Positions 11,321 through 41,333 of a stretch of 41,806 nt of DNA are shown here, one piece after another. This stretch comes from Candidatus Pacearchaeota archaeon (GTDB lineage: Archaea; Nanobdellota; Nanobdellia; UBA10117; JAFCGA01). The notes under the pieces are model-generated. The model was not told where the DNA came from and searched no databases. It saw nothing but the letters and a program-made list of their open reading frames with translations. Location: contig JAFCGA010000009.1 of NCBI GenBank assembly GCA_017608345.1, forward strand, positions 1 through 41,806, read 5' to 3'. Within the stretch, counting starts at the first letter, position 1. The number at the start of each line of letters is the position of its first letter. Made by a program: the position numbers and the translations under genes.

Positions 11321-11572
11321 GCCGGGATCGCTTAATCTGGTACAGCCTTTCTTTCTTCCGAAGAAAGAAACGCTGGCGAAAGAAAGAAATTATTGCTCGC
11401 TAGCGCTCGAAAATATAAAGAACTGGCTGCAGAAAATAGCACAAGCCTGGAAAGCTTGACTCGTAAGGGTATCTGGGTTCAAAGAGCCTTTTTCTCTTTC
11501 TAGAAAGAGAAAAACCCTCGGGAAAAAGAGAAAGTGAACTCCTGAGAGGCTTAGAAAATCCCAGTCCCGGCG
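11321..11572 (+). tRNA. tRNA-Ser(GGA) with two non-canonical introns
   Basis: Exons 11321-11341, 11436-11483 and 11559-11572 splice to an 83-nt type II tRNA. Its acceptor is GCCGGGA/TCCCGGC with discriminator G73. The D-loop has GG and A14/A21, and the anticodon arm is CAAGC CTGGAAA GCTTG (anticodon GGA). The variable arm is ACTC GTAA GGGT and the T-arm is CTGGG TTCAAAT CCCAG. Intron 1 (94 nt) sits between positions 20 and 21. It has a bulge-helix-bulge: TCTG/CAGA central helix, GTA and AAA bulges, inner helix CAGCC/GGCTG, with the D-stem as outer helix. Intron 2 (75 nt) interrupts the T-loop near 59/60 with a relaxed motif, and its exact ends are ambiguous by up to 3 nt without changing the product. 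CCA is not encoded. Confidence 0.92.
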
Positions 11573-11715
11573 CTTTCCGCAATATTGCAGAATTGTTCGG
11601 TATAGTGATTTCTAACTCCCCTTTTATTTTTATGAGTTCATAGCATAACTAATATATCAAAAAGCGGAGGCGGAAAAACTGAAAGGTTTTTAATACTACT
11701 TGTTAATAGAGCGGT

Positions 11716-15663: not shown

Positions 15664-15760
15664 GCAGGGGTGCCCGAGCGGTCAAAGGGGCTGGGCTAAG
15701 GATTTTGATTGGAAACCCAGCGGCTTAGTGCCTACGCAGGTTCGAACCCTGTCCCCTGCA
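15664..15760 (+). tRNA. tRNA-Leu, spliced anticodon AAG, 13-nt intron
   Basis: Type II tRNA. Acceptor GCAGGGG/CCCCTGC, discriminator A73, D-stem CCC/GGG, anticodon stem CTGGG/CCCAG, variable arm GGC TTAGT GCC, and T-arm GCAGG TTCGAAC CCTGT. The 20-nt anticodon loop contains an intron at 15702-15714 in the canonical 37/38 place. CTAA (15696-15699) pairs with TTGG (15709-15712) as central helix, leaving GG^A and AA^A as cut sites. The spliced loop CTAAGGA gives anticodon AAG. A73, the D-arm and the long variable arm support Leu. A34 is very unusual for an archaeon. The gene sits inside the ribosomal cluster on the same strand. Confidence 0.88.
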
Positions 15761-39668: not shown

Positions 39669-39759
39669 TGTAATGGTTCTTTGTTTATTTGAGTTATAAT
39701 ATTTATGAAACTCAAATATAGATCGAAGATATTTTATAGCTAAGGAGCTAGAATTAAAG

Positions 39760-39906
39760 ATGGACTACAAAAAGCTAGGCTTCAAATGCCATTTCTTTCT
39801 CTTGCGAAGAGAAAGAACTAGGCGTCCAAGAAAGAGAAGCATCTTGCTCAGCTCCTTCGGAGCTTCGAAACAAACGCTCACTAATCAGCTCGCTATAGAA
39901 ATATGA
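39760..39906 (+). CDS. Leader ORF copying the GatE N-terminus
   Basis: 48 codons. It begins MDYKKLGFKC, which is the usual archaeal GatE start (the intact gene starts MNYSKIGFKS), then diverges into a basic, hairpin-encoded sequence. Its TGA overlaps the gatE ATG as ATGA. ATATTTTATAG (39729-39739) lies 26 nt before this ATG and no TATA box precedes the gatE ATG, so transcription likely begins here. Two perfect hairpins lie inside: TTCTTTCTCTT/AAGAGAAAGAA (39793-39817) and AGCTCC/GGAGCT (39850-39864). It is either a remnant of an older start or a coupling peptide. Confidence 0.6.
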   Translation: MDYKKLGFKCHFFLLRRERTRRPRKRSILLSSFGASKQTLTNQLAIEI

Positions 39907-41333
39907 ACTATTCAAAAATTGGCTTCAAATCCGGATTAGAAATTCATGCTCAGCTAAATGTAGGCAAGCTATTCTGCTCGTGTCCATCAATCTTAAGGCA
40001 AGATAAGCCACACTTCACCATTAAGCGAGAGCTAAGACCTCTCGCAGGAGAGACTGGCGAAGTTGATGTAGCAGCAGCTTATGAAAAGAAAAAACAATTG
40101 TATTATATTTATGAAGGCTATGAAGATTCAACTTGCTTAGTTGAGCTAGATGAAGAACCACCGCATGAAGTTAATCTTGAAGCTCTGAACGTTGCGTTGA
40201 CTGTTGCTAAAGCACTGCACTGCGAGTTCCCGGACGATGTCCAAGTTATGCGGAAGACTGTTGTCGACGGTTCCAATACTTCTGGCTTTCAAAGGACAGC
40301 GTTAATTGGAATGAATGGTTGGATTAAGACTAGCTTTGGCAAAGTTGGGATTAATTATTTGATTTTAGAAGAAGATGCAGCTAGAAGGACAGCTGAGAAG
40401 AGTAAAGTCTCAGTTACTTATCGGTTAGATCGGCTAGGGATTCCTCTGCTAGAAATTGTCACAGCCCCAGACATGAAAACGCCTGAGCAAGTCGCAGAAG
40501 TTGCTAAACTACTCGGCGGATTAGTTAAATCAACGGGTAAAGCTATGCGCGGAATCGGAACAATTCGTCAAGATGTTAATATCTCAATCAAAGGACACTG
40601 CCGCGTTGAGCTAAAGGGTGTGCAGGATCTGCGGATGATGAATAAGTATGTTGATCGCGAGATTGAACGACAAAAAACTAGCAAAAAAGATAAACAGCAT
40701 GTAAGAAATGTCAAGCAGGACTTCTCTTCAAAATATCTCCGACCGCTACCGACCGCGGCGAGGATGTATCCCGAGACAGATCTTCAGCTAATCAAAATAA
40801 CTAAGCAGATGATTGATTCTGTTAAAATTCCTGAATCTCGCGAGAGCAAGATGAAGCGATATCTCGGAATGGGTCTAAGCGATGATCTGGCTAAAGAAAT
40901 TGTTCGATCAGATAAATCAGACTTATTCGAAGAGTTCGTTGAGAACTATAAGAAGAAAGTTGCTCCGAAACTAATTGCTTCGATTATGACTTCGACAGCT
41001 AAAGAAGTCAAGCGAAAGCTGGGATTAGCTAGCTTTGAGCCAGATTCTCAGTTATTAGATAGGATTTTCTTAGGTCTAGCGGGCGGGGACAAGACAACTC
41101 CTCGATTAGTTAAAGAATCTGTTTTAGATATTCTACTAGCAGTTGCCAAAGGAAATGATCTCTACGAAGTTTTGAATAAATATAAGCTTCTTTCAGATAC
41201 TGGGCTGAAAAAAGAGGTTAATAAATTGAAGAAGCAGTTCTCAAAGGTTCCCTCGAATAAACTAACTGGAATTATAATTGGTAAGTTGAGAGGTCGAGCA
41301 GATCCTAGGAAGATTATTCAGTTATTGAATTAA
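39903..41333 (+). CDS. gatE: Glutamyl-tRNA(Gln) amidotransferase subunit E, short form
   Basis: 476 aa. SGLEIHAQLNVGKLFCSCPS, ELDEEPPHEVN, VDGSNTSGFQRTALIG, RLGIPLLEIVTAPDM and VELKGVQDL are the GatE/GatB cradle motifs, and the C-terminal helical tail region is present. Archaeal GatE is usually about 600-640 aa. Here the AspRS-like GAD insertion after the VELKGVQDL region is missing, and DREIERQ leads within about 25 residues to YLRPLPTAARMYPETD. It recognises and amidates Glu-tRNA(Gln) with GatD. It overlaps the leader ORF by 4 nt. Confidence 0.93.
   Translation: MNYSKIGFKSGLEIHAQLNVGKLFCSCPSILRQDKPHFTIKRELRPLAGETGEVDVAAAYEKKKQLYYIYEGYEDSTCLVELDEEPPHEVNLEALNVALTVAKALHCEFPDDVQVMRKTVVDGSNTSGFQRTALIGMNGWIKTSFGKVGINYLILEEDAARRTAEKSKVSVTYRLDRLGIPLLEIVTAPDMKTPEQVAEVAKLLGGLVKSTGKAMRGIGTIRQDVNISIKGHCRVELKGVQDLRMMNKYVDREIERQKTSKKDKQHVRNVKQDFSSKYLRPLPTAARMYPETDLQLIKITKQMIDSVKIPESRESKMKRYLGMGLSDDLAKEIVRSDKSDLFEEFVENYKKKVAPKLIASIMTSTAKEVKRKLGLASFEPDSQLLDRIFLGLAGGDKTTPRLVKESVLDILLAVAKGNDLYEVLNKYKLLSDTGLKKEVNKLKKQFSKVPSNKLTGIIIGKLRGRADPRKIIQLLN

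Follow-up and report, generated by a model that had tools for sequence, protein, structure and literature searches.

The tRNA-Ser(GGA) gene described here lies in a window of 41,806 nucleotides, by which we mean the whole stretch of DNA analysed (contig C12 of a 1.05-Mb DPANN draft genome with 15 contigs and 88% completeness). It is interrupted by two bulge-helix-bulge (BHB) introns, and these are probably copies of a dispersed repeat family with a class II triplex core that has spread within the genome, the core folding as single-stranded DNA and the introns being spliced out by EndA and RtcB. The core of the copies consists of a pyrimidine tract (Y), its purine complement (R1), a turn of 6-15 nt, and R2, another purine tract, which mirrors R1. 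The features in the window are collected in Table 1.

Table 1. Exons, introns, core tracts and flanking repeats in the window.
Feature	Position	Strand	Description	Basis
Exon 1	11321-11341	+	tRNA-Ser(GGA), tRNA positions 1-20	ARAGORN, BHB/cloverleaf search
Intron 1	11342-11435	+	94 nt, D-loop site 20/21, canonical BHB core	Junction reading; BHB/cloverleaf search
Intron 1, Y	11348-11358	+	TTTCTTTCTTC	
Intron 1, R1	11360-11370	+	GAAGAAAGAAA, exact reverse complement of Y	
Intron 1, turn	11371-11378	+	CGCTGGCG, 2-bp mini-stem possible	
Intron 1, R2	11379-11389	+	AAAGAAAGAAA, 10/11 mirror match to R1	
Exon 2	11436-11483	+	Anticodon arm (GGA), variable arm, T stem 5' side, part of T loop	ARAGORN
Intron 2	11484-11558	+	75 nt, T-loop site 59/60, relaxed BHB	Junction reading; BHB/cloverleaf search
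Intron 2, Y	11489-11500	+	TTTTTCTCTTTC	
Intron 2, R1	11503-11514	+	GAAAGAGAAAAA, exact reverse complement of Y	
Intron 2, turn	11515-11522	+	CCCTCGGG	
Intron 2, R2	11523-11534	+	AAAAAGAGAAAG, 12/12 mirror of R1; best direct match lower	
Exon 3	11559-11573	+	T loop end, T stem 3' side, acceptor 3' side, discriminator G73 (11573)	ARAGORN
Left direct repeat	39756-39787	+	32 nt, gene-start sequence, flanks third copy; 75% identity to right repeat	
Third copy	39788-39840	+	Between glmS-like and GatB/GatE-like genes	Composite intron query
Third copy, Y	39793-39803	+		
Third copy, R1	39807-39817	+		
Third copy, turn	39818-39827	+	CTAGGCGTCC	
Third copy, R2	39828-39838	+	11/11 mirror	
Right direct repeat	39899-39930	+	32 nt, start of the GatB/GatE-like ORF	Sequence comparison

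The serine tRNA gene

When the three exons are joined, G73 included, they give a tRNA-Ser(GGA) with a 7-bp acceptor stem, a 3-bp D stem, G18G19, a type II arm (ACTC/GGGT), a 5-bp T stem and TTCAAAT, and no mismatch is found in the acceptor, anticodon and T stems. ARAGORN calls this tRNA only with both introns out, that is, removal of the introns restores a normal tRNA. From the unspliced locus, or with a single intron removed, it gives no tRNA-Ser, and its sole output with one intron retained (own intron option on) is a spurious Gly call. Applied to the raw window, Rfam and default ARAGORN likewise missed the gene. When both BHB-like junctions and a full cloverleaf were required, a search returned exactly the two introns of Table 1 as its top answer, while none of 120 dinucleotide-shuffled regions yielded any spliced tRNA with up to two introns allowed. 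These results confirm thus the identity of the tRNA and the two intron sites proposed in a preliminary description made from the sequence alone.

The junction helices also agree with the grades given there, canonical for intron 1 and relaxed for intron 2. In intron 1, the 4-bp central helix is formed by TCTG (11336-11339) and CAGA (11430-11433), and the bulges GT/A (11340-11342) and AA/A (11434-11436), the slash marking the intron boundary, make up a canonical core; the outer helix is weak, with one A-T pair followed by the 3-bp D stem. The central helix of intron 2 has only 3 bp, TTC (11478-11480) with GAA (11554-11556), and the bulges are a 5' one of about 4 nt, AAAG, and a 3' one, AA/T. This junction can slide by up to 3 nt along the A run with an unchanged product. 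Most other T-loop introns of the genome repeat the 3-bp arrangement, with GAAAA or GAGAA preceding the T of position 60, and T54 pairs with A or, as a wobble, with G.

A second tRNA-Ser(GGA), for which the preliminary description had suggested a search, was not found in the 88%-complete assembly, where BLAST with the locus detected exon 2 nowhere else. Three further serine genes were found, one each with TGA, CGA and GCT. Ser(TGA) on contig C10 has a D-loop intron at the same site and an exon 1 identical to that of Ser(GGA), Ser(GCT) on contig C1 has three introns, and Ser(CGA) on contig C7 is intron-free. In the same order, three loci have D-loop introns at the Ser(GGA) site (L099, a tRNA-Ser read as GGA; L115, Ser(GCT); and L104), and in a class relative (L107) the intron of tRNA-Ser(GGA) is in the anticodon stem, not in the D loop. 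Among relatives the tRNA-Ser exons are thus conserved while the introns vary, which is the pattern of a functional gene. The original observation is confirmed, and the locus is predicted to be a working single-copy tRNA-Ser(GGA) gene with two protein-spliced BHB introns.

Intron-bearing tRNA genes and splicing enzymes

By the BHB search and ARAGORN on spliced sequences, at least 21 tRNA genes of the genome were found to bear introns, about 35 in all, with two or three introns in 11 of the genes. The set comprises Ser(GGA, TGA, GCT), Lys(CTT, TTT), Ala(GGC, TGC), Val(GAC, TAC, CAC), Gly(TCC), Phe, both Met, Trp, Asp, Asn, Leu, Thr(CGT) and two further genes. This catalogue, in which some boundaries are uncertain, is a lower bound, since it was built from searches and chosen stretches of the genome. 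Clean reconstruction of a tRNA failed for the candidate loci C14:53.6k, C1:13.1k, C1:240.2k, C2:69.9k and C1:65.0k, and also for Ala(CGC). The window itself contains a tRNA-Leu (15664-15760, + strand) with a 13-nt canonical intron; its spliced anticodon is AAG, and its body and A73 look like leucine. A34 is unusual in archaeal tRNA-Leu. The closest uS11 matches of the genome are from Woesearchaeota and other DPANN, at no more than 67%.

Relaxed BHBs are usually linked with an alpha-beta or three-unit EndA, and the preliminary description had stated that a broad-specificity endonuclease is needed. This is not borne out by the gene content, which gives no sign of such an enzyme. The EndA (PF01974) of the source genome is encoded by one gene on contig C6, with 245 aa and one catalytic unit, and is classified as alpha-type; the genome assembly, at 88% completeness, yielded no second EndA subunit and no fused second or third unit. 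Among solved structures, the chains closest to this EndA are those of the N. equitans catalytic subunit and the M. jannaschii enzyme. The N-domain loop of the EndA, GELHGVKKC, exceeds that of 1a79 by about 3 residues and falls short of that of 3p1z by about 7, which places its length between the euryarchaeal and crenarchaeal ones. EndA was found in 53 of the 56 genomes searched (the source genome and its order and class relatives), nearly always as a single gene, and most of the relatives likewise have an alpha-type EndA with no sign of a second subunit. A full-length gene for the RtcB ligase is present on contig C10.

A dispersed repeat family

The purine/pyrimidine hairpins that the preliminary description had pointed out in both introns are indeed present, but they turn out to mark more than hairpins, namely a repeat family that is dispersed in the genome and has an additional, third strand, a purine tract in mirror image. 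BLAST with the locus gave a dozen other places in the genome that match intron 1, intron 2 or, in the case of Ser(GCT), exon 1 and the start of intron 1, and a composite intron query gave 60 matches. Stretches of the Ser introns are found again, with 80-91% identity, in other tRNA genes, where they are part of introns at different positions, and also in the 16S rRNA gene and in intergenic DNA; related copies thus occur at non-homologous sites, as is typical of mobile elements. Intron 2, for example, is 91% identical over 57 bases to an intron of Ala(GGC) (C1:91199), and its type is also present in the D arm of Lys(CTT), which means that one unit occupies different positions in different tRNAs. 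The 16S rRNA gene (G000:C2:86360-87400) has at least one insertion of the family, at the ...GGATTAGATA... site, and probably a second one upstream of it.

Some further observations concern the surroundings of the family. On the minus strand at a contig end (G000:C8:39-99), a HemK-like frame contains an interrupting copy, which introduces a TAA stop without shifting the frame; this copy is either spliced from the mRNA, or marks a broken gene, or is a contig-end artefact. Nested in hairpin loops of this family is a second type of repeat, CCA-hairpin-TGG-CCA-hairpin-TGG, whose stems vary freely (L122, L128, L139, L145, L147, L177), and a third one has the form CACGT-hairpin-TCGTG (L128, L156, L160, L164). 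Elements with Y, R1, turn and mirror were also seen in contigs of named Woesearchaeota, Nanoarchaeia and other DPANN (L017, L021, L048, L079), some of them with a different turn, TCGTGTCC.

At the three loci examined, the elements are flanked by direct repeats of gene starts of 32-61 nt; such flanking duplications were seen at gene starts only, and not at tRNA sites. One of these loci is the third copy in the window (Table 1), and at two loci of another genome (G009; L110 and L098) tandem 61-nt duplications of gene starts around the copies are 97-100% identical. The latter look recent, and L110 has the appearance of two successive events at one site. The diverged 32-nt repeat in the window (39756-39930) includes the start codon and GGCTTCAAAT, which is T-loop-like. 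A Y1 (IS200/IS605) transposase was considered as the mobiliser and rejected, as none was found in the assembly.

The three-strand core

In intron 1, the direct match of R2 to R1 equals the mirror match, and this copy is therefore uninformative on its own. The mirror score exceeds the direct score in 28 copies and the reverse holds in 3 in the source genome, the corresponding numbers being 25 and 6 in a class relative (G045). In 1.08 Mb of loci gathered for uS11, 7 mirror elements were found and 1 direct one. The summed mirror score of the source genome is 358, compared to 230 (sd 7.6) for permuted R2. A perfect mirror R2 is found in 73 of 96 copies, whereas 500 trials in which the R2s were swapped between copies gave 25.4 on average and never more than 41. 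It is important to point out that A-rich, low-complexity tracts raise the matches in all orientations, and direct or swapped matches are thus not rare; a perfect direct match, for instance, is found in 36 of the 96. The collapse in the swap test means that each R2 tracks its own R1, and it does so across 39 different asymmetric tracts.

Sixty distinct elements are exact in all three strands. Their turns are short and often self-complementary; half of the elements have an 8-nt turn, and many of the 8-nt turns are closed by short varying stems. Only the class II order, Y-R1-R2, was found; the class I order, R2-R1-Y, has zero occurrences everywhere it was scored.

Other relations between the tracts were considered and rejected. 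The mirror fits better than R2 as a direct repeat of R1 and better than R2 as a second Watson-Crick partner of Y, and homopurine G.A pairing between R1 and R2 fails because the mirror register opposes A to A and G to G. A broad purine/pyrimidine pattern applied across relatives was too loose: most relatives gave no clear excess, and the excess over the backward control in the own genome consisted largely of overlapping rows. It was replaced by the mirror-versus-direct, permutation and swap tests.

To our knowledge, copying processes yield direct or inverted repeats and not mirrors. The mirror pattern differs in this from the products of copying, and therefore points to selection for a fold. 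Judged from the sequences, the fact that the three strands covary speaks, on evolutionary grounds, for a three-stranded fold in natural DNA.

Proposed mechanism and alternatives

In the explanation that we favor, Y would pair with R1, and R2 would serve as the third strand of an intrastrand triplex of the purine-motif type (class II), placed alongside R1; since R2 mirrors R1 and covaries with it, it would be antiparallel and in register. As purine-motif triplexes are reported to be absent in RNA (PMC4666352), the fold is placed in DNA, most likely in the single-stranded form of the sense strand, with the opposite strand corresponding to a class IV pyrimidine-motif triplex. Within the genome the family would have spread to further tRNA genes, where it takes up different positions, as well as into the 16S rRNA gene and into intergenic DNA close to gene starts. 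We infer from the sequences both the formation of the triplex and its role in mobility: the fold may aid multiplication through fork stalling, template switching or recognition of the folded strand, and through the BHB ends, copies that have inserted into tRNA or rRNA genes could be cut out of the transcript. The element would thus replicate and duplicate its target, and with its BHB ends it could live in essential RNA genes. For the splicing itself, one alpha-type EndA would cut both introns, the canonical (20/21) and the relaxed (59/60), and the exons would be joined by RtcB, a pathway that is expected from known archaeal biology. A-rich purine triplexes are weaker than G-rich ones.

As an alternative, the three-strand pattern may exist as described but work at the level of RNA or as a structure bound by proteins, with the excised intron and untranslated regions as examples of where this might happen; it would then not be a DNA triplex and would play no part in mobility. 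All the intronic copies displayed are in the sense orientation, which would fit this scenario, but the BHB ends alone would already enforce that orientation. The resemblance of the turns to capped mini-hairpins, including a TTCG loop, also speaks for it. However, the mirror is kept in the intergenic copies as well, and the purine motif is the one reported not to form in RNA (PMC4666352), such that we regard this scenario as rather unlikely.

We have also considered that these are ordinary BHB introns, transposed by reverse splicing or recombination in the manner of the Thermoproteales, where transposition of introns between tRNA genes is known (PMC4090602, PMC4390854). The tracts would then be hitchhiking low complexity and the mirror a by-product of composition, and indeed the tracts are simple A/G runs for which perfect direct matches are frequent too. 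This is unlikely in view of the tests above, as R2 matches its own R1 far above the R2s of other copies, the signal is lost on permuting R2 and no element with the class I order was found; moreover, the intergenic copies would be left unexplained by reverse splicing into tRNA. Finally, although repeats can cause misassembly in a draft genome such as this one, it is very unlikely that we are dealing with a pseudogene or with a locus created by faulty assembly or binning, considering the mature cloverleaf without mismatches in the acceptor, anticodon and T stems, the lack of another Ser(GGA) gene among those found, the relatives in other assemblies with D-loop introns at the same Ser site, and the same style of intron in more than 20 genes.

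Comparison with known systems

In the Thermoproteales (Pyrobaculum and relatives), introns have been described at the sites 20/21 and 59/60, with as many as three in one tRNA, and similar introns in different tRNAs have been read as intron transposition (PMC4090602, PMC8450103, PMC4390854). All these traits, namely the two sites, several introns per tRNA and similar introns across tRNAs, are shared by the present genome. It differs in being from a DPANN lineage with one alpha-type EndA gene, in the covarying Y-R1-mirror R2 core of the introns, and in having relatives of the introns in intergenic DNA and at gene starts. According to the preliminary description, several introns outside 37/38 in one tRNA are known mainly from Thermoproteales and a few tiny-genome archaea. 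This is outdated, because in three wetland Asgard genomes introns are reported in 92-95% of the tRNA genes, with several introns in more than half of the genes (PMC11291895). The Asgard Atabeyarchaeia and Freyarchaeia have in common with the present genome that most tRNA genes bear introns, many of these at non-canonical sites and with several per gene, but they belong to a different phylum, and the parts of that report consulted here mention neither a repeat family nor a triplex-type core (PMC11291895). With the sites, multiplicity and copying known from Thermoproteales and the heavy loads from wetland Asgard archaea, the Ser gene itself is thus of a known kind.

As to the core, the best-known class II motif is the E. 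coli Box C, or TM-ECO, for which triplex formation in vitro and a role as a marker of unstable loci are reported (PMC4666352). The class II motifs (PIT elements, Box C/TM-ECO) are dispersed short repeats with Y, a complementary R and a second R as third strand in one DNA strand (PMC4666352), and the present copies likewise have Y, complementary R and mirror R on one strand. The tracts of TM-ECO are rich in G and its second loop has 3 nt, and the published finder allowed 1-6 nt (PMC4666352), whereas the tracts here are A-rich, vary freely and covary, the turns are mostly 8 nt (range 6-15) and in this respect depart from the finder, and there are copies inside introns predicted to splice. The text of that paper makes no mention of introns or tRNA (PMC4666352).

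The copies resemble MITE- or REP-like repeats in being short, non-coding, hairpin-forming, dispersed and nested, and in that some are flanked by direct repeats of the target. However, a three-strand core replaces the terminal inverted repeats, the duplications of 32-61 nt span gene starts, no Y1 transposase was found in the assembly, and copies inside tRNA genes are predicted to be spliced. In the literature searched, BHB introns linked with a covarying three-strand repeat are undescribed. We put forward, as a tentative proposal with somewhat less than even chances, that the family is an undescribed kind of mobile element of DPANN archaea, a miniature repeat in which one strand folds into a triplex for copying or insertion and which has acquired BHB splice ends.

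Conclusions

The present results indicate that default tRNA and RNA-family searches overlook many tRNA genes of this genome, and that non-canonical introns can be numerous in a lineage that has only one alpha-type EndA gene. The hypothesis of a three-stranded fold is testable with short oligonucleotides. The mechanism by which archaeal tRNA introns move has been stated to be unknown (PMC4090602). Here the putative moving unit is visible, as one structured repeat that is shared by tRNA introns of several positions, 16S rRNA and gene starts, some copies being flanked by near-identical duplications. If the proposal is true, a triplex-folding element with BHB ends would supply the mechanism of archaeal tRNA-intron transposition.
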